A DNA stretch of 41,843 nt from Eubacteriales bacterium. Lineage in GTDB: Bacteria; Bacillota; Clostridia; Lachnospirales; Lachnospiraceae. Both the position numbers and the translations under genes were made by a program. The notes beneath the pieces are model-generated. The model was given only the letters and a program-made list of their open reading frames with translations, made no database searches and was not told the origin of the DNA. The stretch spans positions 1 to 41,843 of the forward strand of contig JAUNNI010000019.1 of NCBI GenBank assembly GCA_030531555.1, written 5' to 3'. Position 1 is the stretch's first letter. The number at the start of each line of letters is the position of its first letter. Positions 11,547 to 39,210 of the stretch are shown here, piece after piece.

Positions 11547-11553
11547 CAATATG
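11547..11553 (-). promoter_or_regulatory. CATATTG element upstream of the AIM24-like gene
   Basis: On the minus strand the context is AAAATCACTCATATTGAA, the best match to the window-wide motif AAAATCAYTCATATTGAA. It lies about 46 bases before the start codon, where a -10 box could be. Confidence 0.55.
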
Positions 11554-11561
11554 AGTGATTT

Positions 11562-11720
11562 TTACCAGTCATCATCTTCGTCATTGTCATCATCGTCAAA
11601 GCTATAGTCATCCTTATCTTCCTTACTCATCTCATCAAGAAACATGAACTGTGCAGCACGTTCTGCAAAATCTAATCTTCCATCGTGATTGAAATCAAAC
11701 ATCTTATCAAATCCAAACAT
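11562..11720 (-). CDS. Tiny EF-hand-like acidic protein
   Basis: About 52 residues, starting MFGFDKMFDF, with the calcium-loop pattern DFNHDGRLDFAER (about residues 9-21) typical of an EF-hand or dockerin half-loop, followed by an almost all-acidic tail. The start at 11720 has AGGCAGG just upstream; an earlier in-frame ATG at 11765 lacks a good site. Function unknown; a role as a calcium-sensing or DNA-mimic peptide would be speculation. Confidence 0.6.
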   Translation of the reverse strand: MFGFDKMFDFNHDGRLDFAERAAQFMFLDEMSKEDKDDYSFDDDDNDEDDDW

Positions 11721-11901
11721 AATGCTACCTGCCTTTCGTTCTTTAAAACTATTTGTTTTCTCCATTATAGAAGAAATGCCATTTAGAAAAAATATCTGTT
11801 ATGGCGAGATAAGGCTCTCTTTTTCTTCCTTTTCGAGAAATAACTAATTACATCCTGTGATTATAAGATATCTCTAATTATGTCCCATAAAAAGTACTGC
11901 C

Positions 11902-12513
11902 TCATTGTCTGTTCGAATTATTTTTACGCATTTTATCGTCTTGTTCCAATTTATCAAATATTTCATATACTTTATTTACCTTTTTTTTTCTTTTTCTTCG
12001 TTCTGCCTGCTTCTTATAAATTTCTTTAGTAAATACAATATTTTTCTCTCCCTTTGATTCTGCCTTTTTAAAATCATCATGATCTTGTATATACTGGAGA
12101 ACCCCTCTTATTGTGTGATAACACAAAGCATCCTCCTGAACATGATATCTTTCCTTTTCCGCGCGTTTAAAATTAAGTGCGTACTTAGATCTGCTTCGAT
12201 GAAATAGAAGCATTTTTTCTTCATTTTTTGAGTACATGATCTTCCAGCATCCAATCTCTGTTCTCACATACAAGGCATCTTTTTTATATCGAAATTCCAT
12301 ACCATGCCTCTTTTTAAAATAAGAGATAGAAAGGCTTTCATAATCGATATAGTATGATAGCCTGCAACAGCATTTACACGGCTGATATCCTTTTCTTCTT
12401 GCTTCCCACCAGGGAAGCGTAAATTCATTTTTGTTTTTAATTCGTCTTGCATGATGGCAATATGGATTATGATAGACTTTCGAGCATCGACTCATCAGTC
12501 TCTCCTTTCCCAT
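11902..12513 (-). CDS. Zinc-motif protein with an Ada-like N-terminal segment
   Basis: A 203-residue protein. The first about 50 residues carry CSKVYHNPYCHHARRIKNKN then GYQPCKCC, matching the 'S-x-x-Y-H-x-x-x-C ... A-x-x-x-G-Y-x-P-C-x-x-C' pattern of the small metal-binding domain found at the N-terminus of Ada and in several nuclease-associated proteins. The rest is basic, ending in a KR-rich helix (RRKRKKKVNK), suggesting nucleic-acid contact. It may begin at the second ATG (MSRCSK). A CATATTG element lies about 35 bases upstream (12546-12552). Confidence 0.6.
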   Translation of the reverse strand: MGKERLMSRCSKVYHNPYCHHARRIKNKNEFTLPWWEARRKGYQPCKCCCRLSYYIDYESLSISYFKKRHGMEFRYKKDALYVRTEIGCWKIMYSKNEEKMLLFHRSRSKYALNFKRAEKERYHVQEDALCYHTIRGVLQYIQDHDDFKKAESKGEKNIVFTKEIYKKQAERRKRKKKVNKVYEIFDKLEQDDKMRKNNSNRQ

Positions 12514-12545
12514 GGTGTTCCTCCTTCTTTCAAATATTTCACCAT

Positions 12546-12552
12546 CAATATG
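12546..12552 (-). promoter_or_regulatory. CATATTG element upstream of the zinc-motif gene
   Basis: Read on the minus strand: AAAGACATATTGATGG, about 33 bases before the ATG at 12513. It lies within the divergent spacer shared with the nitroreductase, whose own promoter is of sigma-A type. Confidence 0.5.
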
Positions 12553-12568
12553 TCTTTTAATTCTTTTA

Positions 12569-12597
12569 TTGAATTTATTTTTTTAACGTGGTAGACT
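12569..12597 (+). promoter_or_regulatory. Sigma-A promoter of the nitroreductase gene
   Basis: TTGAAT (12569-12574), 17-base spacer, TAGACT (12592-12597), with transcription expected near 12604 and a GAGGAGG site before the ATG at 12625. Confidence 0.55.
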
Positions 12598-12624
12598 ACG
12601 CAAAAATACGAGGAGGAAAATTAT

Positions 12625-13639: not shown

Positions 13640-13646
13640 CATATTG
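13640..13646 (+). promoter_or_regulatory. CATATTG element upstream of the 13682 gene
   Basis: Context CTATCTTCCATATTGTTAA immediately after the terminator of the previous gene and 36 bases before the next ATG. No sigma-A -35 box is visible, as the upstream bases are the terminator's T-run. Confidence 0.5.
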
Positions 13647-14025: not shown

Positions 14026-14032
14026 CATATTA
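14026..14032 (+). promoter_or_regulatory. CATATTA element upstream of the DUF932 gene
   Basis: Context CTTAAAACCCATATTAAAG, 38 bases before the DUF932 ATG. One base differs (A for G) from the shared CATATTG. Confidence 0.4.
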
Positions 14033-15184: not shown

Positions 15185-15673
15185 TTAAATTAATTTTAAT
15201 GTTCCACCACATTTACAACGATATCGTTCCGGATGGATCACAACATTTGATTTCTTTTGCCGGTATATCTTCTCACCGCATCCCTCACACAGGATAACAT
15301 ACTTTGCTTTCTGTATCCTTGCTTCTGCGATTCCAGATAATTCACTTTCTTCTTTACTGGCCTTCGTTTCAACCTGGATTCCAAGTTTTCGTTCGACCAT
15401 AGATCCATAACGATGAAAAGTCTTTCCATGATTCATACAACCATTAATGGTGTGGACAAGTTCATGAGCGAGGGTTGTTCTTACCTGTTTTTCATCCTCC
15501 ATCGCATATCGGGATAAGAAGATCATAAAAATTCCATTTTCTTTTTTGCATCTGCCAAGAGCGGAAACTGAATTCATGAAATGTAAATTCTTTGCGATTC
15601 TTTCATCAGGGATTGGAATACCGACTCTTATAAAATCTTTTCTTAATTCTTCAAATATTGTTTGTGCATTCAT
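15185..15673 (-). CDS. SprT-like zinc metalloprotease
   Basis: A 162-residue SprT-family protein. The catalytic HELVH (H-E-x-x-H, residues 70-74) lies within TLAHELVHTINGCMNHG, with the third ligand expected at HGKTFH. The last about 45 residues form a zinc ribbon (CEGCGEKI ... CKCGGTL). Related eukaryotic SPRTN cleaves DNA-protein crosslinks. A role in clearing crosslinks from plasmid DNA is an inference. A CATATTG element lies about 37 bases upstream, and the gene has its own terminator. Confidence 0.85.
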   Translation of the reverse strand: MNAQTIFEELRKDFIRVGIPIPDERIAKNLHFMNSVSALGRCKKENGIFMIFLSRYAMEDEKQVRTTLAHELVHTINGCMNHGKTFHRYGSMVERKLGIQVETKASKEESELSGIAEARIQKAKYVILCEGCGEKIYRQKKSNVVIHPERYRCKCGGTLKLI

Positions 15674-15709: not shown

Positions 15710-15716
15710 CAATATG
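15710..15716 (-). promoter_or_regulatory. CATATTG element upstream of the SprT-like gene
   Basis: On the minus strand: TTGTAACATATTGGATG, about 37 bases before the ATG at 15673. Confidence 0.5.
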
Positions 15717-15739: not shown

Positions 15740-16003
15740 TCAGACTTCCTCTTCTTCCACTTTTACAAATCGAAACCCTTTTACTCTCAATGCTCTCGGA
15801 TAACCTTCCGTATCTTCATCCGTTTCAATTTTTCCCAGCTCCTTAAGCTGGTCAAGGTATGAATTAACACTCGACGTACTTTTAAGCCCGGTCAGCTTTC
15901 CAATTTCACGTGTAGTTGGAGGATAACCACGTTCCATAATATATCCAATAATAACTTCCAATACCTGATCTCTTTTACTGCTGTTTTCTCTCAATCCACT
16001 CAC
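15740..16003 (-). CDS. LexA-type DNA-binding domain protein lacking the peptidase
   Basis: An 87-residue winged helix that matches only the N-terminal domain of LexA: REVIEVIIGYI-like helix, GYPPTTREIGKLTGLKSTSSV as recognition helix and YLDQLKELGKIE as the wing. The C-terminal autoprotease (Ala-Gly cleavage site and Ser/Lys dyad) is absent, so RecA cannot inactivate it by the usual route. It is probably a constitutive plasmid repressor, and the two inverted repeats upstream of its gene (16023-16073) are the natural autoregulatory operators. Confidence 0.85.
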   Translation of the reverse strand: MSGLRENSSKRDQVLEVIIGYIMERGYPPTTREIGKLTGLKSTSSVNSYLDQLKELGKIETDEDTEGYPRALRVKGFRFVKVEEEEV

Positions 16004-16122: not shown

Positions 16123-16137
16123 GTGAACTTAGTTCAC
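16123..16137. promoter_or_regulatory. Palindrome GTGAACTTAGTTCAC, copy 1
   Basis: Lies upstream of the RelA/SpoT-domain gene and 25 bases before its CATATTG element. The flanks AAAATC and TTTTTT are also shared with copy 2, giving a 27-base identical block. Likely a protein-binding site. Confidence 0.6.
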
Positions 16138-16162: not shown

Positions 16163-16169
16163 CATATTG
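16163..16169 (+). promoter_or_regulatory. CATATTG element upstream of the RelA/SpoT-domain gene
   Basis: Context AAATTTCATTCATATTGG, 43 bases before the ATG at 16213. Confidence 0.55.
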
Positions 16170-16725: not shown

Positions 16726-16760
16726 CTATCAAAAAATAGCCAGGTATCTGTTCTTTTTAC
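16717..16760. terminator. Shared terminator between the RelA/SpoT gene and the SMC gene
   Basis: Near-perfect inverted repeat CCTGACTA / TAGCCAGG around TCAAAAAA, followed by T-rich sequence on the plus strand; one mismatch. On the minus strand the end of the SMC gene overlaps it, with the stop at 16757. Confidence 0.55.
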
Positions 16761-19288
16761 ATTCCTGTAAATACAGGTCTTCTCTCTTTTCCATTCCAGG
16801 TGAATCTGGTAATGGCAACACTCCTGCTCTTTTCATCATGGGTAAGATGGGAAATGGCAAGATTTTTTACGGATGGATATGTTCCCCATAATGTCTGGGA
16901 ATTAAGTAGATATTCAAGATCCATCTGAGAAATAAATTCAAATACTGCATCTGTATTCGAGCTGTCACAGACGGTAAAGGCTTCATCAAGACCCATAAAC
17001 CTTGGATGATCTGCAATCTCACATTCAGAATATAAGGAATTCAGTGCGGATAAAAGGGAAGAATAAATCGCAGTTGCCCTCTCACCACCTGATAAACTCA
17101 TGAATCGTTTGTTGGTAAGTTCTTTCTCTTTAAAACCAGGCTCTGTAAGAAACATTTTAAATTCATACCAGTTTCGGTAATCAAAGCAGTTTTTGATAAT
17201 GGCTTCATAATCCATTTCCAGACCTTCATTCGCAGCATAGATTCTTTCCTGTTTAAGCTTGGAGGAAAAATGATTTTTAATCCGTTCAAGATCTTCTTTT
17301 CCTATTCTGCCTTTCTGCTTCTTACTGATGATCTGCTCTAAGATAGAGGTATCGATTTCATTTTGTGTTTCTGCTTTTTTCGGTACCCATTTAAGATTAA
17401 AGACCATGCCGGATGTTGTCTTAAGGTTTCTCATTCTTTCAGATATCTTATCCACCCAGTATTTGCTCTGTTTAATCTTGTAGATCATCTTCTGGGCTGC
17501 AGTATCCAAAAGAACCTTCTGGTATAAAGTCGTTTCCTGTTCATCAAGAAGGCCTTCCTTGTCCCTGATCTCTTCTGTGACAATCTGTAGTAACTCTTTT
17601 GGAAGCAGATTTTTAAAAGTCAGGAAATAACGGGAATAATCCATCGCAACCATCTTTCGTTCCAGTCTTGGCTGATATAAAAGCATGTCTGTCTCATGAT
17701 CCTTATAGATATTGATAAGGTTATCCATGCTCTCTTCTACGGATATGCCTGTAACACGAATCTCTTCATCAATCGTTTCTTGATCAAAATCATATCCTTT
17801 CCATCTGCATTCCCATATAAGATGTTCTTTAACGATGGAAAGTTCTTTTCCCTTTTCTTCCAAAGCATGATAATCTCTTCTGACTTTCTCTTCCATCTCC
17901 GGAATCTGAGCAGTTTCCAAAAGACTGATTTCTGCTTTCATGGAAGCAATCTGGTTTCTATTTTCTTCCGAACGTTTGGAAAGACTAAACAGCTCTTCCT
18001 GTTCCACATCCGTTTTAAGTCCATCTAATCGGTGTTCTAACTGGGATATGGTGCGGTCTGTCTCTTCTTTCTGATAACGAAGATCCATCAGAATCTCTGC
18101 GAGTTCTTCTTCCCTCTGTCCATAGGTATGAAGCATCACTTCACACATCTCAAAGTTCTGGATTTCTTTTTCCATTTGATGAATCTCATCCATATAATCA
18201 TTTGCCATCTTAAGAAGCTGGCTGTATTTCTCTGATCTCATCTGATAAAGGAATCCATATTTTGATACTGTTTCCTGAAGTTTCTTAAGAATGATTCCGT
18301 AGATATTTTCTATGACTGCCTGATTTTCTTCCTGACGGTCAAAGAATTCATTTTCCTTTTCAAGATAGTAACCATTTTTTTGAATCTCTTCTTTTATCTC
18401 TTCAATCTTTTTAAAAGCTGGAAATCCGAAATATTCTTTTTTCAACATTTCAGCCTTTAGGATATTTTTATCAAGCTCCTTACGCAGGCTCTCATCTGCA
18501 GTTTTTTCGAAACATGCTTTGATATAACCATTTCGTTCCTGATAATGATTGTTTTTTTCATAGAAAAGTTCAAAGACTGCTGCTTTTGCATTTTCCCATT
18601 TTTCTTCTTCGATCAGCCTTGTGATTCCATTGATATGAGAATCTAATTCAAGAACCTGACAGTAGGCTGCATAGGATTTTATTTCTTTGATAAGATATAT
18701 TTTGCTTTCTTCGTACTCTTCTTCATATCGCTTGATCGTTTTTTGATATTCATGAATCTTATTCTGACTGAGAATCCCTTTTGTTTTTTCTGCGTCCAGC
18801 TTTCCTTCATTGGATTCTTTTTCCTCAATCAGTTTGAGACATTCTTCCAGATGATTTTTAAAAAGGTTTCCCTGTTCTTTAAAACCTGACACCAGTTCAT
18901 AAGATGTTTCATCTTTATACTCCTGATGGAAAGGAAGGTCAAGTTCCCATGCATATCCATCAAGATTTTCCCAGATGTTCCTGGTTTCTTTTTGATGCTG
19001 ATATTTCTGATCTTCTGTCTCTTTTATTTTATATCCAAGGGAAATCTCATCTTCTTTCGATTCCTCGATCTGATGTCTGATCTTTTCTGCCTTCTTTTTG
19101 GCTTCACTGAGTTCCCTGTGGATTCTTTCCACTTCTTCAAAGTTTCCGGTATTTTTTAAAGTAAAGAGCTTTGCTGATACTTCTTCCTGTTCTTCCATTA
19201 ACTGGTCTAAAGATGCTTTTAACAACTCCCTTTTTGACTGTTTATCCGATAACCCTTTCGTATTCTTCTCAAGATCAGTATGGATCAT
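16757..19288 (-). CDS. jetC: JetC-like SMC ATPase lacking the N-terminal head half
   Basis: 843 residues: almost all coiled coil (Glu/Lys/Gln-rich, residues 1-640), then the C-terminal head with the ABC signature LSGGE at about 732-736, Walker B RFMGLDE at about 763-769, and a closing DLEYLLNSQTLWGTYPSVKN then TRFTWNG that match the Wadjet JetC end (as in TIGR02680). The N-terminal head with Walker A (G-x-x-G-x-G-K-S/T) is missing, and no such motif exists anywhere else nearby. Full-length JetC exceeds 1,000 residues. The open frame reaches back past 19288 to about 19330 with no start codon. As read, the protein could not bind ATP alone. It may be a recent deletion derivative or work with a partner. 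Confidence 0.72.
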   Translation of the reverse strand: MIHTDLEKNTKGLSDKQSKRELLKASLDQLMEEQEEVSAKLFTLKNTGNFEEVERIHRELSEAKKKAEKIRHQIEESKEDEISLGYKIKETEDQKYQHQKETRNIWENLDGYAWELDLPFHQEYKDETSYELVSGFKEQGNLFKNHLEECLKLIEEKESNEGKLDAEKTKGILSQNKIHEYQKTIKRYEEEYEESKIYLIKEIKSYAAYCQVLELDSHINGITRLIEEEKWENAKAAVFELFYEKNNHYQERNGYIKACFEKTADESLRKELDKNILKAEMLKKEYFGFPAFKKIEEIKEEIQKNGYYLEKENEFFDRQEENQAVIENIYGIILKKLQETVSKYGFLYQMRSEKYSQLLKMANDYMDEIHQMEKEIQNFEMCEVMLHTYGQREEELAEILMDLRYQKEETDRTISQLEHRLDGLKTDVEQEELFSLSKRSEENRNQIASMKAEISLLETAQIPEMEEKVRRDYHALEEKGKELSIVKEHLIWECRWKGYDFDQETIDEEIRVTGISVEESMDNLINIYKDHETDMLLYQPRLERKMVAMDYSRYFLTFKNLLPKELLQIVTEEIRDKEGLLDEQETTLYQKVLLDTAAQKMIYKIKQSKYWVDKISERMRNLKTTSGMVFNLKWVPKKAETQNEIDTSILEQIISKKQKGRIGKEDLERIKNHFSSKLKQERIYAANEGLEMDYEAIIKNCFDYRNWYEFKMFLTEPGFKEKELTNKRFMSLSGGERATAIYSSLLSALNSLYSECEIADHPRFMGLDEAFTVCDSSNTDAVFEFISQMDLEYLLNSQTLWGTYPSVKNLAISHLTHDEKSRSVAITRFTWNGKERRPVFTGM

Positions 19289-19334
19289 TTCCTTCTCTCG
19301 TTTTATTTTTTCATATTCTTTATATAGTAATGCA

Positions 19335-20405
19335 TCAGATCAATTCTCCCTGTATCATACTTGCTAACGGATAGATGGTAACCACTTTGTCATCATGACT
19401 TACGGCTTCCCATTCCCGAAGGCCTTTTAATGTTATCTTCATTAACTGCTGAATGGACATATTCTGATATTCTTTCGTCCACCAGTCATAATCCTCTGTT
19501 TTCATTTTCGTAAGTATCTTTTGATATTGTTCCATGGATAGATACTGGTTATTTCCTGTCGTATCAATCTCCGTTGAGATAATATACTCTTTTATATAGG
19601 TGAGCATTCTTGTCAGTAACAGATCTTTCATATTCCCTTTTGGAAATTCATGGCATAATTCTCTTCTTCCATTACGAATCTCTGCATTATTTGGGATCAT
19701 GAGACAGGAAAATGTATCCTGTGTGATAAGACTGACATCACTTCCGATTAAATATTTAAAGTCATCTTCGATCTCTGACATATGCTCCTGGACGTATCTT
19801 TTCATCTCAATATTAAAGTCATTATAGTAAAGGACTGGCTTTAAAAGGAGACTCCTGTAAACTTTATTTATCGTTGTCTCTTTTTCCTTTGTTACTTCAA
19901 TATCTCTTGCATATCCAGTATTAAAATACAAAACACCATCTGTTAACGGACTCTCTTCTACCAGATATCCGGCATCTCCGTCAAGCTTATTAAGGTATCC
20001 CTGTTTTTCACAATAAGTAAGGGCACGGTAAAGACTATACTTAATGCTGATTGAATTAAAATCTGCGTAAATATTTTTCTTTTCAAATACAATCTTTAAA
20101 TGCTCGATCATATCTTCTGCCGTAAAGACACTGTCTGTATTGAGATTGAGATAATAATAAATCCCTGTTAAAAAGACATAATCCATTTTGTCTTTAAATG
20201 ACTGGATACCCATGGTCTCACTGACATCATTCACCGTCTTTTTTAAGAAGATCTTTTCTGGTGTGATCATTACATCCCAGTTTAACTTATTTAAGATTGC
20301 ATTATACTGATTCTTTTTTCCTGTAAGGCATTCTTTCATCTCGGAATAAAGCAATGGATCATATTCTTTTTTTATCACGTTTCTATTGATCAATTCCCAA
20401 ATCAT
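19335..20405 (-). CDS. jetB: JetB-like protein (DUF2398/TIGR02678-like, MukE-type)
   Basis: A 356-residue protein whose pieces fit the DUF2398 family of Wadjet loci: ALTYCEKQGYLNKLDGDAGY (winged-helix and 'G-x-L-x-x-x-D-G-D' turn) and YRSLLLKPVLYYNDFNIEM, matching the family's 'R-x-L-L-x-x-P-V-x-Y-x-D-x-L'. In Wadjet, JetB is the MukE-like subunit that bridges the kleisin and the SMC ATPase. Its start overlaps the JetA-like stop by four bases (ATGA), showing translational coupling; the SMC gene follows. Confidence 0.65.
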   Translation of the reverse strand: MIWELINRNVIKKEYDPLLYSEMKECLTGKKNQYNAILNKLNWDVMITPEKIFLKKTVNDVSETMGIQSFKDKMDYVFLTGIYYYLNLNTDSVFTAEDMIEHLKIVFEKKNIYADFNSISIKYSLYRALTYCEKQGYLNKLDGDAGYLVEESPLTDGVLYFNTGYARDIEVTKEKETTINKVYRSLLLKPVLYYNDFNIEMKRYVQEHMSEIEDDFKYLIGSDVSLITQDTFSCLMIPNNAEIRNGRRELCHEFPKGNMKDLLLTRMLTYIKEYIISTEIDTTGNNQYLSMEQYQKILTKMKTEDYDWWTKEYQNMSIQQLMKITLKGLREWEAVSHDDKVVTIYPLASMIQGELI

Positions 20406-22805: not shown

Positions 22806-22826
22806 AAAAGTGTTTTATGTTAAAAT
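22799..22826 (+). promoter_or_regulatory. parA promoter
   Basis: TTGAAA (22799-22804), 16-base spacer, TAAAAT (22821-22826). An AGGAG site follows at 22841-22845. Confidence 0.65.
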
Positions 22827-28681: not shown

Positions 28682-28694
28682 ATAAACGATAGGT

Positions 28695-28724
28695 ACTGTC
28701 CATCATAACTGGTGGGCAGTTTTT
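28695..28724 (+). terminator. Terminator 1 after rep
   Basis: ACTGTCCA / TGGGCAGT around TCATAACTGG, followed by TTTTT. Confidence 0.75.
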
Positions 28725-28785
28725 AAAAGATAAGTATCTAAAGAAGCTTAAAATGGAAAAAGAAAAATAGGGTAAATCAGAAGAG

Positions 28786-28820
28786 TGCTGTTGGATGATA
28801 TCCAATGGCATTTTCTTTTT
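28786..28820 (+). terminator. Terminator 2 after rep
   Basis: TGCTGTTGGA, loop TGATA, TCCAATGGCA, then TTTTCTTTTT. A tandem stop before the secY unit. Confidence 0.75.
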
Positions 28821-28830
28821 CATGAAAATC

Positions 28831-28845
28831 GTGAACTTAGTTCAC
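28831..28845. promoter_or_regulatory. Palindrome GTGAACTTAGTTCAC, copy 2
   Basis: Together with its flanks AAAATC and TTTTTT it is identical to the 27-base block at 16117-16143. It lies upstream of secY, 38 bases before the CATATTG element. Confidence 0.6.
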
Positions 28846-28883
28846 TTTTTTTGAATTTGGAATATGGTTCATGAAAAATCATT

Positions 28884-28890
28884 CATATTG
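28884..28890 (+). promoter_or_regulatory. CATATTG element upstream of secY
   Basis: Context AAAAATCATTCATATTGAA, 25 bases before the ATG. Confidence 0.58.
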
Positions 28891-28915
28891 AAAACAAAAA
28901 AGAAAGGAAATGAAT

Positions 28916-30193: not shown

Positions 30194-30208
30194 TGGGAGA
30201 TTGTATTT

Positions 30209-30370
30209 ATGAAAAGATTAAAATCAAATTTAAAAGTATTTACCTATCCAAAACCAAAGCAGCTAGCAAAAATGACAGGCATTGTGGTTACTTCTGCGTT
30301 TGTAGTATCTATAATAATTGCAGCAGAATCCACACTGATCAGCAGTGTCATCTCAGTAATATTTAAATAA
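30209..30370 (+). CDS. secE: SecE-like protein
   Basis: 53 residues, starting MKRLKSNLKVFTYPKPKQLA and ending in one membrane helix, the SecE layout: a short amphipathic 'P-x-x-x-x-L' region before a single transmembrane segment. It lies 15 bases downstream of secY with GGGAG upstream. SecE and SecY form the core of the channel, so the plasmid supplies a matched pair. Confidence 0.8.
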   Translation: MKRLKSNLKVFTYPKPKQLAKMTGIVVTSAFVVSIIIAAESTLISSVISVIFK

Positions 30371-30380
30371 CATTAATTTG

Positions 30381-30409
30381 TGCCGGGGCCAGTGGCTCCG
30401 GTATTTTTA
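30381..30409 (+). terminator. Terminator after secE
   Basis: CCGGGGCC, loop AGT, GGCTCCGG, then TATTTTT. Confidence 0.85.
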
Positions 30410-30462
30410 CTTATAGAAAATTTATTGGGGTGGAAATTGGGGTACTAAAGCAGAGAATCTTG

Positions 30463-30489
30463 AAAATATGGCTTAAATAAAGGCTCTAA
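30463..30489. repeat. 27-bp inverted repeat, right copy
   Basis: The exact reverse complement of 26205-26231, 4.2 kb away. The two copies enclose rep, secY and secE. Confidence 0.85.
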
Positions 30490-30534
30490 TTTTGAAAATG
30501 CGATATCTACAAAAAAAGGCATTTTAAAGATATA

Positions 30535-30543
30535 TGGTATAAT
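30535..30543 (+). promoter_or_regulatory. Promoter with extended -10 for the signal peptidase unit
   Basis: TGGTATAAT is an extended -10 box 17 bases before the ATG at 30560. A GGGGG site lies between. Confidence 0.55.
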
Positions 30544-30559
30544 AAGGGGGTAAAAAGAA

Positions 30560-30817
30560 ATGAAGAAAGAAGTGCCATTAAAGACATTTGAAGATATCAG
30601 AAAAGAAGCAAATCGATTTTCTATCGGGGATCAAGTTGTGATTCCTAAGAAGCTTTCCTTTTTGGGAAAGCAGATAACAGGAGAAATCCTAGATATCACT
30701 GATTACTTTTTGCTGATCAATTGCCACGGAAAAAGAGCATGCATCAAACACTGTTTTGGATTTGTGGATGCCATGGATATCAGGATCGTAAAACAACAGA
30801 AAAGAGGTGGGAGATAA
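30560..30817 (+). CDS. Small protein preceding the signal peptidase
   Basis: 85 residues, starting [20 protein letters not shown], with a small beta domain ([10 protein letters not shown] to [17 protein letters not shown]) and a basic C-terminus. Not recognised. Its stop codon TAA overlaps the ATG of the signal peptidase (TAATG), so the two are translationally coupled. Confidence 0.6.
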
Positions 30818-31323
30818 TGAGAATGATGATTCTACGCCTCTTAAAAGAAGCAGCAATTCTTTTAGCTTTTATGGCTTTCACATTTCTTATGACAAAATAT
30901 GTTTTTGTTAATGCTTATATTCCTTCGGAATCCATGGAACCATGCTTATCAGCTGGTGACTTTGTAATCGGGAACAGATCAGTAAGAGAGATTGACTATG
31001 GAGACATCATTATCTTTCAGTATGATAAAGCAAACTGTTTTATCAAAAGAGTGATCGGATTACCAGGAGATATTATTGGTATCAATCAGGGAAAAGTGTA
31101 CCGCAATGGATCGGAAATTAAGGAAGAATATATAAAGGAAGCCATGAAATCAGAAGAAGGAAAAATGTTCTTTGTACCAGAAGGAAAGTATTTTGTAATG
31201 GGAGATAACAGAAACCATTCTTTTGATTCAAGATACTGGGATGATCCATATGTAAAGAAAGAAAAGATTGTAGCAAAAGCATTCATAAGAATCTGGCCGA
31301 TTCGAAAAATAAAAATTTTGTAG
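30817..31323 (+). CDS. Type I signal peptidase
   Basis: 168 residues: an N-terminal membrane helix (about 9-33), then the catalytic Ser in IPSESMEP (Ser39), the Lys in KRVIGLPGD (Lys78), and the [13 protein letters not shown] box. It removes signal peptides after export. The ATG at 30817 overlaps the preceding stop. Together with SecY-SecE it makes a small plasmid export set. Confidence 0.92.
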
Positions 31324-31335
31324 GAGGAATAGAAA

Positions 31336-31692
31336 ATGAAGAAGATATTATTGACTGTTGCAATGATTGTAACTGCACCGTTTTATTATTTGAACCGAAT
31401 TGCAAAGCATGGAGCAGATTATAAGATATTAAGTATGGCATCATGGGCGGTAGCATTTTTCTTAATTGTGTATATGTTCTTTACACAGGGACAATACCAT
31501 ATACCATTCTTTAAACTGATGCTTAAATTAAGTGGAGAGATGTTTCTTTTATCACTGATTATAGGAGTTATTTATAAAGCTGAGATGCTTGTTTGGTGTC
31601 TGATTCTCATTCTCTCCAAACCATTTGCAGAGATTCATTTAAGAACATATGATGGGATCTATAAAAAAGACAGAATCTTTGGAATTATATAA
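31336..31692 (+). CDS. Membrane protein downstream of the signal peptidase
   Basis: 118 residues with three hydrophobic segments (about 4-20, 33-52 and 68-96) and a basic C-terminal tail. Begins 12 bases after the signal peptidase with AGGAGG. Not recognised; the location suggests a partner in secretion or a membrane anchor. Confidence 0.6.
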   Translation: MKKILLTVAMIVTAPFYYLNRIAKHGADYKILSMASWAVAFFLIVYMFFTQGQYHIPFFKLMLKLSGEMFLLSLIIGVIYKAEMLVWCLILILSKPFAEIHLRTYDGIYKKDRIFGII

Positions 31693-31718
31693 GAAAGATG
31701 CCAATGATTTTTCTAATC

Positions 31719-31747
31719 TTGCGAAATTAATGAAATAATGTTAGACT
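31719..31747 (+). promoter_or_regulatory. Promoter of the riboswitch operon
   Basis: TTGCGA (31719-31724), 17-base spacer, TAGACT (31742-31747). The same TAGACT -10 is used by the nitroreductase promoter, so this is a sigma-A style promoter unlike the CATATTG set. Confidence 0.5.
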
Positions 31748-31760
31748 ATAAATACCTATA

Positions 31761-31850
31761 AAGAGTGCGTGAGAGACAAGCTCAACGACCGCACAGCAAC
31801 CTGCCATAGGGTAAGGTGCTAAAGCTTGACTGATGGGAATAGTACGATAG
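31761..31850 (+). promoter_or_regulatory. SAM riboswitch aptamer (SAM-I/SAM-IV clan)
   Basis: The core AGCAACC (31795-31801) ... AAGGTGCTAA is the hallmark of the SAM-I/SAM-IV clan that binds S-adenosylmethionine. Stem GTGCG (31765-31769) pairs with CGCAC (31790-31794), an inner hairpin TGAG/CTCA encloses AGACAAG, and the loop CAAG (31777-31780) can pair with CTTG at 31825-31828 as a pseudoknot. I think it is the SAM-I-IV variant rather than classic SAM-I, but I cannot decide by eye. Confidence 0.75.
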
Positions 31851-31857
31851 ACGAAAG

Positions 31858-31890
31858 ACTCCCATTGGTAACGATGGGAGTTAATTTTTT
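31858..31890 (+). terminator. Riboswitch terminator and antiterminator
   Basis: Terminator: ACTCCCAT (31858-31865), loop, ATGGGAGT (31874-31881), then TTAATTTTTT. The left arm can instead pair with ATGGGA at 31833-31838, giving a competing antiterminator: typical OFF-switch architecture when SAM is abundant. Confidence 0.8.
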
Positions 31891-31944
31891 GCATTGAACC
31901 TTGCTGCTCTTTTAGGAAACTAAAAAAGAGGAGGCATAAGGAAT

Positions 31945-32229
31945 ATGCGAAATATTACTGAATTATCAAAACTTAAAGGAAAAGTGTATGTGTATCTTAA
32001 AGATGAAATAATTGCTGATAAGTTTCTTCGGGATGCAGAAAAGGAAGGTTTCACATTTGGTGATGGTGCAAAGCCAACTTCTCGTCCAGGAAATAATCTT
32101 TATGTGGTTAATAAAGACTGGACTATTAGTCATGTAGGTATGGCAGGGCATATGGCATATCAGTCAGCGAAAATGGTTGGGAATCAGCAGCTTATTAGGA
32201 TAGATTATGAAAAGTATATCTTGAAGTAA
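31945..32229 (+). CDS. Small protein of unknown function under SAM riboswitch control
   Basis: 94 residues, starting MRNITELSKLKGKVYVYLKD, with a conserved-looking middle (AEKEGFTFGDGAKP and DWTISHVGMAGHMAY). I have a vague memory of similar small proteins scattered in Clostridia, but know no function. AGAGGAGG lies upstream. It is the first gene after the riboswitch and is followed 32 bases later by the polyferredoxin gene. Confidence 0.6.
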   Translation: MRNITELSKLKGKVYVYLKDEIIADKFLRDAEKEGFTFGDGAKPTSRPGNNLYVVNKDWTISHVGMAGHMAYQSAKMVGNQQLIRIDYEKYILK

Positions 32230-32261
32230 ATTCTGATTTATACAGCTTAGGAGAATAATCA

Positions 32262-33095
32262 ATGAGAGCGAAGATTCGTAAATATATAGTGCCAATAATA
32301 ATGCTTATCATATTTGAAACGGTAGCAATATCATTGTGGCTTTCAAAAGATAATATTTTTTATTTGTTTAATTTTAGCTATATAGGTATTTCAATTGCTT
32401 TAGGAATAGGTCTGATGACAGCTAAAAACAAATATGGAAGGCGTGTAACACAGCTTCTAGTTGGAATGTATATGCTTATATATTTGGGCGTTATCAGTAA
32501 CGAAAATATGCAAATAGAAGGATTTTGGTATTATCTATTTACGGGTGTTTTCGAGGCAGCAACTATTCATTATGCTGTTGCCAAGATTTTCGGTCCTCTT
32601 GTATTCGGAAGAGGTTGGTGTGGTTATGCTTGCTGGACAGCAATGATACTTGATTTTCTTCCTTATAAACAACCTATTAGTCATGAGAGAAAGAAAATAG
32701 GGTGGTTAAGATATGTTATGTTTGCCATTTCTCTCATATTTGTATCTACATTATTTTTAGCAAATGTAGAAAATATAGAGAGAATAATGTTTGTGGCTTT
32801 TATTGTTGGCAATGTATTGTATTACGTATCTGGAATTGTATTGGCAGTTGTTTTCAAAGATAATCGTGCTTTCTGCAAATACTTGTGCCCAATTACAGTA
32901 TTTTTAAAGCCAATGAGTTATTTTGCACTGTTCAGAGTTAAGTGTAATAAAGATAAATGCATTTCCTGTGGTAAATGTAAAAAAGTATGTCCAATGGATG
33001 TTGATGTTACGGATAATTCACGAAAGCGTAAAAATGGAACAGAATGTATTTTATGCTTAGAGTGCAAGAAAAGTTGTCCTAAAGGTGCACTATAA
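32262..33095 (+). CDS. Membrane polyferredoxin, NapH/YccM-like
   Basis: 277 residues: several membrane helices (about 8-28, 38-58, 68-84, 90-115, 147-168 and 173-200), then two 4Fe-4S clusters at the C-terminus (CNKDKCISCGKCKKVCP at about 228-244 and CILCLECKKSCP at about 260-271), plus GWCGYACW and CKYLCP cysteines between the helices. The layout is that of electron-transfer proteins such as NapH. The donor and acceptor are unknown. The S-adenosylmethionine riboswitch suggests a link to a SAM-dependent pathway or to sulphur supply. Confidence 0.82.
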   Translation: MRAKIRKYIVPIIMLIIFETVAISLWLSKDNIFYLFNFSYIGISIALGIGLMTAKNKYGRRVTQLLVGMYMLIYLGVISNENMQIEGFWYYLFTGVFEAATIHYAVAKIFGPLVFGRGWCGYACWTAMILDFLPYKQPISHERKKIGWLRYVMFAISLIFVSTLFLANVENIERIMFVAFIVGNVLYYVSGIVLAVVFKDNRAFCKYLCPITVFLKPMSYFALFRVKCNKDKCISCGKCKKVCPMDVDVTDNSRKRKNGTECILCLECKKSCPKGAL

Positions 33096-33132
33096 AATTG
33101 TAATTTAATGAATGTATTTCAAACATAACAGA

Positions 33133-33162
33133 GATGTTCACGACAAAGTGAGCATCTTTTTT
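33133..33162 (+). terminator. Terminator after the polyferredoxin
   Basis: GATGTTCAC, loop GACAAA, GTGAGCATC, then six T. Confidence 0.85.
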
Positions 33163-33177
33163 ATTGAAAAAATCCTC

Positions 33178-33184
33178 CATATTG
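33178..33184 (+). promoter_or_regulatory. CATATTG element upstream of the 33210 gene
   Basis: Context AAAAATCCTCCATATTGAA, 26 bases before the ATG and just behind a terminator. Confidence 0.58.
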
Positions 33185-33209
33185 AATGAAAAAATAAGGA
33201 GGTCGAAAA

Positions 33210-34598
33210 ATGGGTGATGTATATAGAGATATGGAATATTACCTGCGTATCACGAATCATATGATAAGCATTGGAACTTCGATACTGGATATGCCGCAGG
33301 ATTTCGTCAAAACCTGGGTTTCAGCAAGAAGAGAGAATGCAGGGGCAAGGCTTTTAAAAGATTATTTTGAAGCAGACTCCAGTCATAATCCTTCGGTCTA
33401 TATTGTTGACAGTGCTTATCGAAAAGATATGAGACAGGAGATTGAAAAACATAACAGAAGTGTGGAAGAAGACCGGAAAATAAAATATCTGTTTGTTTCC
33501 ATGGAAAATGGTCAGACTCTTTTAATTACCAGGGACAGGGATGAAAGAGAAATGGATCAAGTTATGAATAACATGAAAGAGAAGGGAATCCATGAGGGTG
33601 TTCTTTCGGAAGAGATACTTTATAACAATGCAGAAGGAAGTGTTATGAGTATGTCTGGCCTGAATGCTCTGGAAGCGGAACTTCTTCTCCAAAAAGCAAA
33701 GGAAAATGGAATTGCTTTATCGATTAGAGAAACTGCTCTGAATGAATTTAAAGTTTCTTTTAAAGAGCAGGACAAAGAGCAGATGGCAAAAATTACTACT
33801 TCTGTTTTTTATGATCTTTCGAAAGATTGTGGGGAACTTTACGGAATACGAATCACTTATCAAAAATCAATGGAGTCTCAGCTCCATAAAAAGATAGATG
33901 ATTTAAAAGAACCACCTTTTTATGTGATTGACCAGGATGGAAAAACGATTGGAGTAAGTGGCAGTAAATTTTATTATAAAGAACCAGGAAAAAAAGCATT
34001 GGAAGCAGATCGAACAAATCCGAAACACAGAGCAATGATGCATTATGTTGTAAATGAATTAAAAGAGCCTGTGATCTTAACATCAAAAGAATATAAAGAA
34101 TTGCAAATGACAAAGGAGAAAGATGTCTATCTTGAAAGATTAAGAGAGAAGCAGGGAAAAATAAAGTTTACGGAAGAAGAAATTAGAAGATTGAATCTTC
34201 ATGAAAAGAACAGGAATCTCTATGAACAGAAGCTGCTTCTTGGGAATCCACTTCAAGATTATGTAGAGAATCTTCTCAGCAATGATGAAGTTGAGATAGA
34301 TGAGTTTGTTCGTCTTAATCATATGAACGAGGAATATGATTTGAGCGAAGAAATCATCAAAGATGTCAATGAGCGTCAGGCAAGAATCAAGGTACAGATA
34401 GAAGAAGAACAACATGATCTGGATATGGAAAGAGAAGATGTTTACGAGATGGAGCTCCAGGAAGATAGAGAAGAAATCATTCTGTCAGATGACGATCGTT
34501 ACCTTTATGAAGACAGGAATGGTGATGGTATTTCAGATATCTATCAGGATGAGAATGCAAATGGAATTCCTGACTGGCAGGAAGAAGAAAGGGAATAA
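33210..34598 (+). CDS. Conjugation-associated protein with a C-terminal calcium-type tail
   Basis: 462 residues, mostly helical, with an opening (ITNHMISIGTSILDMPQDFV) and layout that may correspond to the PcfB/DUF3801-type proteins that precede virD4 in Gram-positive conjugation modules; this is a guess. The C-terminus has two acidic D-x-N-x-D-G-type loops (DRNGDGISDIYQDENANGIP, about residues 433-452), as in dockerin or thrombospondin-like repeats. Eleven bases before the VirD4 start. Possibly an accessory or relaxosome factor. Confidence 0.5.
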   Translation: MGDVYRDMEYYLRITNHMISIGTSILDMPQDFVKTWVSARRENAGARLLKDYFEADSSHNPSVYIVDSAYRKDMRQEIEKHNRSVEEDRKIKYLFVSMENGQTLLITRDRDEREMDQVMNNMKEKGIHEGVLSEEILYNNAEGSVMSMSGLNALEAELLLQKAKENGIALSIRETALNEFKVSFKEQDKEQMAKITTSVFYDLSKDCGELYGIRITYQKSMESQLHKKIDDLKEPPFYVIDQDGKTIGVSGSKFYYKEPGKKALEADRTNPKHRAMMHYVVNELKEPVILTSKEYKELQMTKEKDVYLERLREKQGKIKFTEEEIRRLNLHEKNRNLYEQKLLLGNPLQDYVENLLSNDEVEIDEFVRLNHMNEEYDLSEEIIKDVNERQARIKVQIEEEQHDLDMEREDVYEMELQEDREEIILSDDDRYLYEDRNGDGISDIYQDENANGIPDWQEEERE

Positions 34599-34608
34599 GG
34601 TGGGAAGG

Positions 34609-35673
34609 ATGAAAAAAGATAAAATTCGCAAAAAACCAAAAGAAGAGAAGATCCTTTCCGAAGAAAGAAGAAAAGAAAATCAGCGTTTTATGAACTATTA
34701 CATGGGAGCAGTAGCAGGAATCCTGGCAGCCTATGTTTTTGCATATACTGCATCAATCATGATGGAAGAAAACATAACTTTCTTATCGGCTTTTTCATTA
34801 TTCTTATCTGCAATGTCAGAAGGAGAGTACTTCTTTACCATGAACTTTTATGCCTTTGGTGGGATTATGGCAGGAATCCTGACTGGTCTTGTAACAGGAT
34901 TTTTCCTGCAGAGTGAGAGCAGTAGTAAATACAGTTATGATCCAAATGCGATTGCAGGTACTGGTGGCTTTATGGATAAGAAGCAGCTTAAAAATTATTC
35001 CTTAAAATATGTGGATGAAGATGTTTATGTTGATCCATTGACTGGGAAAGAAGATGAAAATTGCAATCCTAACATGATTCTTGGAGAAGGAGTGTATCGA
35101 TCATTGAATCCTAGAATTACGAACCGCAATAATAATATATTAATTATCGGTGGTTCTGGTACGGGTAAATCATTTGGCTTTATAAAGCCAAATATTTTAC
35201 AAATGAACGCAAGTTTTGTATGTACTGATCCGGCGGGGGAACTGGTACGATCAATGGGTAATGTCTTAAAAGAGAATGGATATAAAATCAAGATCTTCAA
35301 CATTGTTGATATGAAGCATTCCAATACCTATAATCCTTTTAATTATATTAGAGAAGAGTCTGATGTTCTTAACATGGTAGACTGTTTTATACAGAATACT
35401 ACCAATACCATTGATGGTAAAAAGACTGTGTGTGAGTTTGATAATGTTGAAGGTTCTACGGACTTGTTAGATTCATTGGGAGATAAGATAAGTGACGAAG
35501 ATTATGATAGATTAAAACAAACTCTTGATGAAATGAAAGAAGATGGATGTGATGCTGCGATTACATCTGTTAAGGTTGAATATGACGAAAATAGAAATCC
35601 TACAAAGGTAACAGTAGGGATATTAGACGAATCAACAGGAATCAAGAAGTATAAGGAATATAGTCCTAGATAG
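34609..35673 (+). CDS. Truncated VirD4-type coupling protein joined to a foreign toxin-like tail
   Basis: 354 residues. Residues 1-265 are a clear VirD4/TraG start: two membrane helices (about 33-50 and 78-102), DPNAIAGTGGFMDKK, Walker A GGSGTGKS at 181-188, DPAGELVRSM and YNPFNYIREESDVLNMVDCF. The family then continues with a conserved 'FWE...' and Walker B region of about 300 residues. Here, straight after NTTN (near 35398), the frame continues with an unrelated Asp/Lys-rich 89-residue tail (TIDGKKTVCEFDNVE to KYKEYSPR). The Walker B and hexamer surface are lost, so coupling is probably dead. The tail resembles the end of a polymorphic toxin; the next gene is a matching immunity type. Confidence 0.7.
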   Translation: MKKDKIRKKPKEEKILSEERRKENQRFMNYYMGAVAGILAAYVFAYTASIMMEENITFLSAFSLFLSAMSEGEYFFTMNFYAFGGIMAGILTGLVTGFFLQSESSSKYSYDPNAIAGTGGFMDKKQLKNYSLKYVDEDVYVDPLTGKEDENCNPNMILGEGVYRSLNPRITNRNNNILIIGGSGTGKSFGFIKPNILQMNASFVCTDPAGELVRSMGNVLKENGYKIKIFNIVDMKHSNTYNPFNYIREESDVLNMVDCFIQNTTNTIDGKKTVCEFDNVEGSTDLLDSLGDKISDEDYDRLKQTLDEMKEDGCDAAITSVKVEYDENRNPTKVTVGILDESTGIKKYKEYSPR

Positions 35674-35682
35674 GAGGAAAAT

Positions 35683-36057
35683 ATGAAACCAGAAACATTG
35701 ATATTTGATAAGGTTAGGAAAATCCTTCCTGATATGAGTGATAAGACCATTTTCTTTGTGGGAATAACAAAAACAAGCCAAGAAGTATATTTTTATTCGT
35801 TTATAAATGGTGAGGCAGTTCAATGCTATACTCTTGCAGAGCAGTATGAATTAGACGAGAATGAACTGGCAGAAGTTTTTTCGGAGATTGTTGAAATAAT
35901 AAAGGATTCTAAATTATACATTCCTGATAAGTATAATGTTGGAACTATTTCTATTGACAAGTCTGGAATAAAGCTGGATATGGGATACTATGATATGGAT
36001 GCCAGCGAGTATCGAATTCAGAAGGAATGGAAAAAGGATAAAATAGATTCGCTGTAA
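35683..36057 (+). CDS. DUF600/YezG-type immunity protein
   Basis: 124 residues, beginning ETLIFDKVRKILPDMSD and containing GTISIDKSGIKLDMGYYDMD followed by EYRIQKEWKKDKI, the arrangement of the DUF600 (YezG) immunity family, which neutralises C-terminal toxin domains of LXG/YeeF-type polymorphic toxins. It begins ten bases after the fused reading frame with AGGAGG. No complete toxin is visible in the window, so it appears as an orphan immunity gene or immunity to the short tail before it. Confidence 0.6.
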   Translation: MKPETLIFDKVRKILPDMSDKTIFFVGITKTSQEVYFYSFINGEAVQCYTLAEQYELDENELAEVFSEIVEIIKDSKLYIPDKYNVGTISIDKSGIKLDMGYYDMDASEYRIQKEWKKDKIDSL

Positions 36058-37574: not shown

Positions 37575-37603
37575 TTGATGAAAGAACGTATGTTTGATAT
37601 AAT
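37575..37603 (+). promoter_or_regulatory. Promoter of the 33-residue peptide with an internal SOS-type box
   Basis: TTGATG (37575-37580), 17-base spacer, TATAAT (37598-37603). Within the spacer lies GAACGTATGTTT (37584-37595), which matches the Gram-positive LexA box (GAAC, four bases, GTTY). LexA bound there would block the promoter. Confidence 0.65.
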
Positions 37604-37737
37604 GTGTGAGAGGTATTTTCCTCAGGGTGTTATCACACAGTGACGTGTTGATGGCGGTTCGCTTTTTTGCGGAGAGTTAATAGCTCCGATTACATAGAAA
37701 CTCGCTAAGAGAATCTTATGGAAAGGAGGTATTGTCT

Positions 37738-37839
37738 ATGCTTACTATTACAGATCTTATATCGGTGCTTGCATTATGTGCAACATTTTATGGTCTTGGA
37801 TATGTGCATGGACAGCATGATTCCAAGGCAAAAAAATGA
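37738..37839 (+). CDS. 33-residue membrane peptide, type I toxin-like
   Basis: MLTITDLISVLALCATFYGL then a short charged tail: one hydrophobic helix and a KKK-type end. This resembles small holin-like toxins (TxpA/BsrG or Fst-like) of type I toxin-antitoxin systems. AAAGGAGG precedes the ATG, and the 130-base leader may fold and hide it. The SOS-type box in its promoter points to induction by DNA damage. No antisense RNA gene can be identified by eye. Confidence 0.5.
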   Translation: MLTITDLISVLALCATFYGLGYVHGQHDSKAKK

Positions 37840-37875
37840 TCGCCGGCCTGAGAAACTGAGCGATCATTTTTAAAT
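37833..37875 (+). terminator. Terminator of the small peptide gene
   Basis: AAATGATCGC / GCGATCATTT around a 17-base loop, then TTTAAA. The left arm overlaps the end of the peptide reading frame. Confidence 0.75.
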
Positions 37876-37998
37876 GATTATTCTTTTTCAGGTGAACCGT
37901 CATCGGTAACACCCTTTTTATTATTGATATAATAACACTTATTATTGGGAAAGTCAAAATTACATTTTTTATCTAATATTTCTTAATCCTCTTGTCAT

Positions 37999-38754
37999 CT
38001 ATAAACGTTTTTCAATATTTCTCCAGCTGTGTGTTGAAAGACAGCTCTTTTCTAAATCTTTTGTCATGTCCTTCCAGAGCTTATATGGAAGAGTCATGGA
38101 AAGATAGTCTTTAATAGCTGCACTACGCTGAGAAATATCAAAAAGTCCCATGATGGCACATGGTTCTTCCTTGTCCATCTGTTCTGCTGCATAAACGATA
38201 GAGTGGCATGCGGCACCAAATGGAACAAGAGTATTGATCGTTTTACCGTTATAGAATCCCTGCATAGTGATAAGGGCAGACATCTGGTCTGCATTTGCAA
38301 AAATTAGTACCAGATCAGGAGTTCCAATTTGTTCCCATCTGCTAAGTGGTGCAAATACGATTCGAGGATATGCTTTATCGGAAAAAGGCATGTTCTTACG
38401 CCATTTCATTGCGACTTCTTCATCACAGAAGAATCGTTCTCCTTCTTTTACCATAGGTGGAGCATCCTCTGGAGCTTTTTCACCAAATCCCTGTGAAAGC
38501 ATGATATGGATATTAGGGTTGATTCTGGAAAATCCATCATCAAAGCAGGCACCTACTGCTCCACCGGCACAGGTACAGCCTTCTTCATCCATGGAAGTGA
38601 TCTTTCCTTTTGCTGCGGATATAAGGAAAGGTACAACGCAGTTTCTTTTTCCTGGTGCAGCTTCAAAATCACTTTTTGCAGTAGTATTTGCGAAAAAGAT
38701 GCCAACAGGTTCCAAATCAAGATGTAACATATCTACTAACTTTTTATCCATCAT
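37999..38754 (-). CDS. DUF169-family protein
   Basis: 251 residues with the DUF169 pattern: LEPVGIFFANT at the start, GKRNCVVPFLISAAKG, and cysteines in EEGCTCAGGAVGACFDDG. The ATG at 38754 or 38751 both follow AAGGAG. Family members are cytosolic, possibly redox or metal-binding, but no activity is established. Monocistronic. It sits outside the conjugation set and may be chromosomally derived cargo. Confidence 0.8.
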   Translation of the reverse strand: MMDKKLVDMLHLDLEPVGIFFANTTAKSDFEAAPGKRNCVVPFLISAAKGKITSMDEEGCTCAGGAVGACFDDGFSRINPNIHIMLSQGFGEKAPEDAPPMVKEGERFFCDEEVAMKWRKNMPFSDKAYPRIVFAPLSRWEQIGTPDLVLIFANADQMSALITMQGFYNGKTINTLVPFGAACHSIVYAAEQMDKEEPCAIMGLFDISQRSAAIKDYLSMTLPYKLWKDMTKDLEKSCLSTHSWRNIEKRL

Positions 38755-38785
38755 TTACTCCTTGTACTTTTTTAATAACCATATT

Positions 38786-39088
38786 TTACCAAATATTTCC
38801 GCACTCATCAATGGCAGTTATTTTTGCCAAATCTCTTTGATAAACTATTTCCTTTTTAAAAGAATCCAGATTCGCACAATCAAACCATCCACTTTCCGAA
38901 TCTATATCAAAAAGCGATTCATATCCATGGTAGGCAATAAGAAAAAGCCATCCTTCATAGGTAATGTAACCTTCAAGAATCTGACAGAGATCAAATAGAT
39001 TCTTCACAATATTTGGGTCTTTTAACTGTTCTTTTGAATAGTCAACTGTATTTTCTTCGTTGCCATAAGGTATGTAATAAGCCAGCAT
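38786..39088 (-). CDS. Hypothetical 100-residue protein
   Basis: About 100 residues, starting MLAYYIPYGNEENTVDYSKE, acidic, with many aromatic residues. AAAAGGAACA precedes this ATG. Not recognised. It has no signal peptide. It lies 31 bases before the DUF169 gene in the same direction and may share a transcript. Confidence 0.55.
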   Translation of the reverse strand: MLAYYIPYGNEENTVDYSKEQLKDPNIVKNLFDLCQILEGYITYEGWLFLIAYHGYESLFDIDSESGWFDCANLDSFKKEIVYQRDLAKITAIDECGNIW

Positions 39089-39203
39089 GATGTTCCTTTT
39101 CAAATGAGAAATATATATGGGGTTCTGAGATGATTATACCATTTTTGAAAAACATAGATAGACAATTCTTTTTATAGAGGAAAAAATGAAGCCATTTTCC
39201 TGT

Positions 39204-39210
39204 CATATTG
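39204..39210 (+). promoter_or_regulatory. CATATTG element upstream of the M15 peptidase
   Basis: Context ATTTTCCTGTCATATTGAA, 32 bases before the ATG. Confidence 0.55.

Follow-up and report, generated by a model that had tools for sequence, protein, structure and literature searches.

Location of the CATATTG sites

The window analyzed here, a stretch of 41,843 nucleotides (nt), is a contig of a Lachnospiraceae genome (C128 in an assembly of 3.12 Mb and 165 contigs). It carries genes for Rep3, ParA, ParB, RecA, SSB, SecY, type I restriction and a partial VirD4-like protein. Upstream of nine of its genes lies the heptamer CATATTG or a one-letter variant. These sites very probably belong to a promoter class of their own, and its reader is probably a divergent sigma factor encoded on another contig of the same genome, C63.

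The initial annotation had placed the nine sites on both strands, about 25–46 bases ahead of genes. We recovered all of them, eight as exact CATATTG and one as CATATTA, six on the plus and three on the minus strand, with 25–45 nt between the end of the site and the assigned start codon on the same strand. The extended form AAAATCAYTCATATTGAA, described as frequent, did not hold up, being exact in just two of the nine sites (11545–11562 and 28875–28892). Three more copies are intragenic (12458, 16456, and 29920). The sites, with the downstream gene and the transcription start (+1) predicted from the register described below, are:

11547..11553, minus strand: CATATTG, -10-like; AIM24-family gene 10698–11501; predicted +1 at 11541, TG at -1/+1
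12546..12552, minus strand: CATATTG, -10-like; gene for a 203-aa protein with no Pfam match, 11902–12513; predicted +1 at 12540, TG at -1/+1
13640..13646, plus strand: CATATTG, -10-like; 76-aa reading frame from 13682; predicted +1 at 13652, TG at -1/+1
14026..14032, plus strand: CATATTA variant; DUF932/TIGR03299 gene from 14071; predicted +1 at 14038, TA at -1/+1
15710..15716, minus strand: CATATTG, -10-like; SprT-like gene 15185–15673; predicted +1 at 15704
16163..16169, plus strand: CATATTG, -10-like; RelA/SpoT-domain gene from 16213; predicted +1 at 16175, TG at -1/+1
28884..28890, plus strand: CATATTG, -10-like; secY gene (ATG at 28910 or 28916); predicted +1 at 28896, CA at -1/+1
33178..33184, plus strand: CATATTG, -10-like; gene for a 462-aa protein, 33210–34598, beside the partial VirD4-like gene; predicted +1 near 33190, no pyrimidine-purine step
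39204..39210, plus strand: CATATTG, -10-like; M15-peptidase-domain gene 39242–40585; predicted +1 at 39216, TA at -1/+1

The minus-strand site at 15716 is ambiguous, as it overlaps a possible ordinary promoter (GTAACA, 17 nt, TATAAT). The secY site lies 25 nt ahead of the ATG at 28916, or 19 nt ahead of that at 28910. Directly upstream of the site at 33178 is a terminator-like hairpin (33130–33159), and by eye an inverted repeat with a trailing T run lies immediately ahead of the site at 13640. An identical 15-bp palindrome, GTGAACTTAGTTCAC, occurs at three intergenic places (16123–16137, 28831–28845, and 40590–40604), two of them upstream of CATATTG promoters; it could be a short two-way terminator or an operator.

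Positional enrichment and distribution over the genome

The initial annotation had judged the sites too numerous, at their narrow spacing, to be due to chance; their position bears this out, the frequency of the word does not. Enrichment of the bare heptamer was tried and discarded, with 11 copies found in the window and 9.72 expected from shuffles (standard deviation 3.32). For a count by position, open reading frames of at least 60 aa with a strong ribosome-binding site (RBS) by a script score were taken as genes, and CATATTG was looked for 14–62 nt upstream. In the window the motif precedes 6 of 24 such genes, where 0.13 would be expected from its overall frequency (Poisson 6.7e-9); the AIM24-family gene has too weak an RBS to be counted. 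On four companion contigs (C63, C160, C113, and C80), which were chosen because of their motif matches, so that the counts there are not blind, the motif precedes 10 of 42 genes against 0.33 expected (P about 3e-12). In a chromosome sample (L015–L028, drawn partly from contigs with weak matches) it was found at 1 of 161 genes. Nor is the motif restricted to the window, since 11 further sites lie on C63, C160, C113, and C80. C11 and C157, two more contigs of this genome with a Rep gene, have it at none of 18 genes.

Counts of all 6-mers upstream of starts, made without reference to the motif, point the same way. The two highest-ranking words on C128 are ATATTG and CATATT, and C63 gives the same pair in its own count. 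C80 also has ATATTG in first place, C160 has it fourth in a list headed by TATAAT, and C113 has too few genes for a ranking. The list for the chromosome sample has ACTATA, TATATA, and TATAAT. A strict pattern (CATATTG-N8-30-GGAGG-N4-10-ATG) matched the genome 11 times and its reversed control not at all, and all 11 matches fall on C63 (4), C113 (1), C128 (4), and C160 (2), contigs whose possible unity is considered below. The same pattern reached at most six matches per genome in 98 relatives. A tighter pattern gave 10 matches in the genome itself and at most six in each of 396 other genomes of the family, the highest count of the 397. A looser pattern was unspecific (76 matches, 15 in the control) and supports no claim.

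Anatomy of the putative promoters

For the alignment we collected 20 sites by eye, each a CATATTG or CATATTA before an RBS and a start: nine from the window, four each from C63 and C160, two from C80, and one from C113. Sixteen are the 6 and 10 of the gene count; C160:4254 carries no RBS flag and was retained by eye. Left out despite an RBS flag were, among others, L009:7324, L010:1560 and 13065, L011:8328, and L013:2652, which are seemingly internal or antisense to genes or have no convincing gene. In the alignment a T-rich block, an A/T stretch, CATATTG, and a purine-rich leader follow one another.

With CATATT set at -12 to -7, a pyrimidine-purine step occurs at -1/+1 in 15 of the 20 sites, among them 8 of the 9 window sites and 7 of the other 11. 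Other positions give 0–6 of 20, and none of 20,000 shuffles within the leader reached 15. Host TATAAT sites also show the step most often at this offset (15 of 29, with 11 at the next-best). This fixed +1 register, shared with host TATAAT, argues strongly for CATATT as a -10 hexamer whose C lies at -12. The predicted leaders measure 16–42 nt (19 sites with an assigned start).

The T-rich block lies at -18 to -16 from the C, with T at 43 of 60 letters, a value that none of 5000 shuffles matched at any position. TTGACA was not seen at 16–18 nt upstream over the 20 sites: the mean best match was 2.40 of six letters, against 2.58 in shuffles, in a test whose positive control was itself weak. The initial annotation had likewise recognized no -35 box. 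Profiles, which include CATATT by construction, transferred between contigs: the one from the 11 non-window sites placed 8 of the 9 window sites among its 13 best hits in the window, that at 39204 falling outside the top 20, and with the reverse profile the four C63 sites were the four best hits on C63.

A divergent sigma-70-family protein on contig C63

The initial annotation had suggested looking for a plasmid-encoded sigma factor or activator. A divergent gene of the sigma-70 family was found on C63, a motif-bearing contig:

L009:11661–12557 (C63), plus strand: divergent sigma-70-family protein P0001, 298 aa, TIGR02937

The protein scores 49.2 bits with TIGR02937, the NCBI sigma-70 superfamily model, above the cut-off of 42.9, and matches the phage sigma family phrog_351 (E = 3.6e-10). 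Residues 47–253 are colinear with regions 2–4 of SigA/HrdB chains in the PDB (E about 1e-3), and a hidden Markov model (HMM) of SigF/G and SigA aligns over residues 48–255. No relatives were found at E 1e-8 in the 396 other family genomes (five candidates scored per listed genome), and searches of viral contigs, genome contigs, plasmids, and phages yielded none either. In 23 other genomes of the same genus there were eight matches at E 1e-6; with 24–27% identity and within frames of 369–436 aa, they are probably SigA and not close relatives. In a separate observation, a 258-aa SigA-like protein (L092; G000:C27:24500–25700) apparently lacks the C-terminal DNA-binding region 4.

A candidate for the residue that would favor C at -12 lies in region 2.4. 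The available part of one report describes Q437H and T440I in E. coli sigma-70 as suppressors of a T:A to C:G change at -12 (PMC2613000), and that of another states that such substitutions favor cytosine there and that Hodgkinia has a natural His437 (PMC8321222). In an alignment with 12 SigF/G and 6 SigA sequences, of which the SigF/G entry L109 is incomplete, all three MAFFT modes pair His98 of the C63 protein with Q437 and Ala101 with T440; an HMM from the same set agrees around these residues. We prefer this alignment because it has only one gapped residue before region 2.3, and on that basis His98 would occupy the Q437 position.

On the strand of the sigma gene, umuC and small genes precede it. 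By eye, the sequence upstream of umuC has a host-type promoter (TTGACA, 17 nt, TATAAT), around which TGAAA-N5-TTTCA palindromes lie at L009:9352 and 9421 (L009 9352–9435), with a third, imperfect one seen by eye. We would guess, by analogy with SigN, that transcription reaches the sigma gene from this umuC promoter and that the promoter is subject to repression. L009 11603–11660, ahead of the sigma gene, contains an AACAT-N4-ATGTT palindrome and, by eye, a GGGATGA/TCATCCC hairpin directly before the RBS; these possibly control its expression.

The contigs that carry the motif

It is plausible, and to us likely, that C128, C63, C113, C80, and C160 are one replicon or plasmid; among the pieces compared, no end overlap joins C128 to C63. 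Besides the sigma factor, C63 encodes a serine recombinase, an IS605-type transposase, an HD-domain protein, a helicase, and a Y-family polymerase. C113 carries a UvrD-like helicase together with a 40% relative of the 203-aa protein of the window, C80 another Y-family polymerase and a weak match to ParB, and C160 PARP-, SSB-, macro-, and PARG-like proteins together with ABC transporters. By tetranucleotide profile, in a comparison in which each mean contains its own windows, C80 and C113 are nearer C128 than the chromosome mean and C63 is about equal. C153 leans partly to C128. The composition of C160 speaks against membership, leaning to the chromosome, albeit less than most chromosome windows do. 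Among the pieces compared, C128 and C113 have three exact 31-mers in common, from one short stretch, and C160 and C80 have 25 from another. C63 (L009) ends in inverted repeats of about 53 bp and the left end of C80 (L014) begins alike; these are possibly insertion-sequence ends at assembly breaks.

Further features of the window concern its gene content. Frames 33210–34598 and 34414–35673 overlap; a match to a VirD4-like coupling protein comes from the second alone and is strongest along about 114 residues, so this coupling gene may be partial. At 16757–21832 an SbcC-like protein with a Walker B motif stands with DUF2398 and DUF2397 genes, a set similar to the Wadjet anti-plasmid system, here on a plasmid-type contig. 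Type I restriction hsdM and hsdS genes, a tyrosine recombinase gene, and a further S-domain gene (2–634, 1020–1982, 2061–3215, and 3247–4776) have, to judge from the sequence, the layout of a specificity-switching system.

Relatives in other genomes

Related plasmids had been expected to share the enrichment. On contigs of other genomes with a related Rep it was not seen (2 of 333 genes, 78 loci), which goes in part against the initial annotation, but other genomes yielded no relative of the sigma gene either; over all related loci the motif precedes 3 of 435 genes. The nearest named Rep relatives are in Lachnospiraceae, which suggests this family as the host group, and loci with a related Rep in Roseburia, Eubacterium ramulus, and other taxa were without the motif. 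The plasmid collection held no near match to positions 22800–36000 of the window. Of the SecY hits there, two (H1 and H2) were examined and rejected as related plasmids: both have ribosomal genes among other housekeeping genes, and they resemble chromosomal sequence deposited under the label of a plasmid. The 462-aa protein (33210) had no relative in plasmids or viral contigs, and the Rep family and the C63 HD protein had none in viral contigs.

In another Lachnospiraceae genome, a divergent pair of CATATTG copies lies close upstream of two genes (L078, G044:C62, at 649 and 762). This genome also has a 42% Rep relative, and the pair is possibly a related promoter class.

Proposed mechanism and alternative explanations

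We propose that CATATTG, with C at -12 and G at -6, acts as the -10 element in a class of promoters peculiar to a mobile element, and that the C63 sigma factor of that element, working on host core RNA polymerase, would read it. Transcription would start 12 nt downstream of the C, at promoters without TTGACA and with a T-rich stretch near -28 to -30. The regulon would comprise, in the window, secY, the DUF932, RelA/SpoT, SprT, AIM24, and M15 peptidase genes, and the gene in the conjugation neighborhood; on the companion contigs, it would comprise helicase, HD-domain, DUF188, PARP-like, UvrD, and ParB-like genes. Other genes of the element, such as umuC on C63, would retain host-type promoters. 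The idea of the initial annotation that the promoter is plasmid-specific, in the version with an alternative sigma factor as its reader, is the best-supported explanation, given the 6-mer ranking on C63, the initiator, the concentration on four contigs, and the sigma gene. That the C63 protein is the factor in question seems likely to us. More tentatively, and with somewhat more doubt than belief, the whole may form a self-contained orthogonal system, in which a sigma factor with a natural residue for C at -12, -35-less promoters, and precise initiators would set secY, conjugation-neighborhood, alarmone, DNA-repair, and maintenance genes outside the host promoter code.

Several observations weigh against this proposal. 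CATATTG is absent from the 160 nt that precede the sigma gene, although a more distal promoter is possible, and sigma gene and motif were found together in one genome only. The Pfam models for region 2 (17.9, cut-off 24) and region 4 (16.5, cut-off 24.1) score the protein below threshold. Alignments to SigA only, or to SigA with host extracytoplasmic function (ECF) factors, open a five-residue gap at the critical positions and put Pro and Met there instead. In a widened chromosome-type sample (with L013 and L100–L104, the latter added for loose or sigma matches) 3 of 220 genes carry the motif, one on C153 and one on C65, and on G044:C62, a contig chosen for a match, 2 of 6 do. The initiator test has a control of moderate strength: the 15 of 29 of host TATAAT sites is equalled in 71 of 5000 shuffles, a looser host TANAAT set has the step in 26 of 73 at this offset against 22 at the next-best, and the other 88 CATATTG copies have it in 32 of 88 against 0–23 elsewhere, an unexplained excess. 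The positive control of the TTGACA test separated host TATAAT sites poorly (2.74, against 2.63). A -35 hexamer with variable spacing, which we rejected, scored 78.2 against 65.1 in shuffles (standard deviation 4.6, top of 60 at 78.3), and two other settings behaved alike. Single sites on chromosome-type loci score with the profile like some of the promoter sites, for example 17.2 on C73, away from any start found, and 16.1 on C121, 39 nt before a start.

The host factor SigA might read CATATTG at weak -35-less promoters, aided by an activator of the element bound near the T-rich block. CATATT agrees with TATAAT in four of six bases, including A-11 and T-7, the T-rich block 16–18 nt upstream would fit an activator, and the window encodes helix-turn-helix proteins (a LexA-type DNA-binding domain at 15740–16003 and a repressor-like protein at 5468–6940). 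The invariant C at -12 is no evidence against SigA, because the sites were chosen by CATATT. This explanation is nevertheless unlikely: the motif is hardly used in the chromosome sample (1/161), host starts prefer TATAAT-like words, and expectation maximization found no conserved operator in the 18–28 nt region.

It is less probable still that an element factor other than the C63 sigma reads the motif. The sigma gene lacks a motif just upstream, the genome was read in part, one looser copy of the motif lies on C65, a contig with an ECF-type match, and among the nine Sigma70_r2 matches found in the genome the C63 protein scores lowest. The other eight are on contigs without strict motif matches, and none is on C113, C128, C160, or C80. 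The motif might instead serve some DNA- or RNA-binding regulator as its leader or operator element, with no promoter involved. This would agree with the distance of the motif end from the start codon (21–47 nt over all assigned sites) and with the terminator-like hairpins that some sites follow; we consider it very improbable in view of the fixed initiator step at +1, in the register of host TATAAT. Chance, an AT-rich word noticed after the fact, would suit the unenriched word count in the window and is hardly credible beside the positional enrichment repeated on other contigs, the unbiased 6-mer counts, and the initiator register.

Comparison with known systems

The -10 elements of the Bacillus sporulation factors sigma E, K, and G begin with CAT and differ in the rest, and so resemble CATATTG at the upstream edge, in the C followed by AT. 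None of the nine Sigma70_r2 matches looked like a sporulation sigma factor by length and sequence, in a comparison that did not use the models of those factors. After the superfamily model, the nearest named NCBIfam subfamilies of the C63 protein are SigF, SigG, and SigB (E 6e-10 to 8e-8). Membership in them was rejected on scores of 39.4, 36, and 32.2 bits against 321.45, 311, and 234.35. With SigF/SigG it aligns through regions 2.3–2.4, with a single one-residue gap just before. In the literature on CATATTG with sigma factors or promoters, the occurrence examined was part of a primer.

In the aligned His at position 437, the C63 protein resembles the E. coli sigma-70 Q437H mutant, which according to the available part of the report accepts C at -12 (PMC2613000). 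The latter is a laboratory mutant of a housekeeping factor, and the C63 protein differs from it at many other residues and shows the match in one kind of alignment only. If our explanation is right, this old genetic result becomes testable in a natural factor. An element may then run part of its gene expression apart from the host, its backbone and maintenance genes would be an example of how a mobile element can shield such genes from transcription by the host, and a compact sigma/promoter pair, with a readable code, predicted starts, and a candidate specificity residue, would become available for gut anaerobes.

UviA of Clostridium is a further plasmid-encoded sigma factor. A passage of one report mentions NccH alongside a metal-resistance determinant carried on a plasmid (PMC9045368). 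Plasmid-encoded sigma factors as such are already known from SigN (ZpdN) of the Bacillus subtilis plasmid pBS32, whose promoters, in the part of the report available, lie mainly on the plasmid, with no chromosomal SigN promoters found (PMC6751061). Searched with tblastn at E 1e-3, the C63 protein had no match in the plasmid collection, in which the presence of pBS32 is unverified. As described there, the three SigN promoters combine an upstream box resembling TTTACGTTT with a -10 of the GATATAA type, whereas ours have CATATTG and no defined -35 hexamer; SigN activates its own expression, whereas the C63 sigma gene has no CATATTG just upstream; and LexA control is a shown feature of SigN (PMC6751061). 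Both are sigma-70-family proteins of an extrachromosomal-type element, presumed in our case, with promoters mainly on that element. By this analogy SigN of pBS32 is the closest known case, and an element-encoded sigma factor with a private regulon is probably the right description of the CATATTG system.

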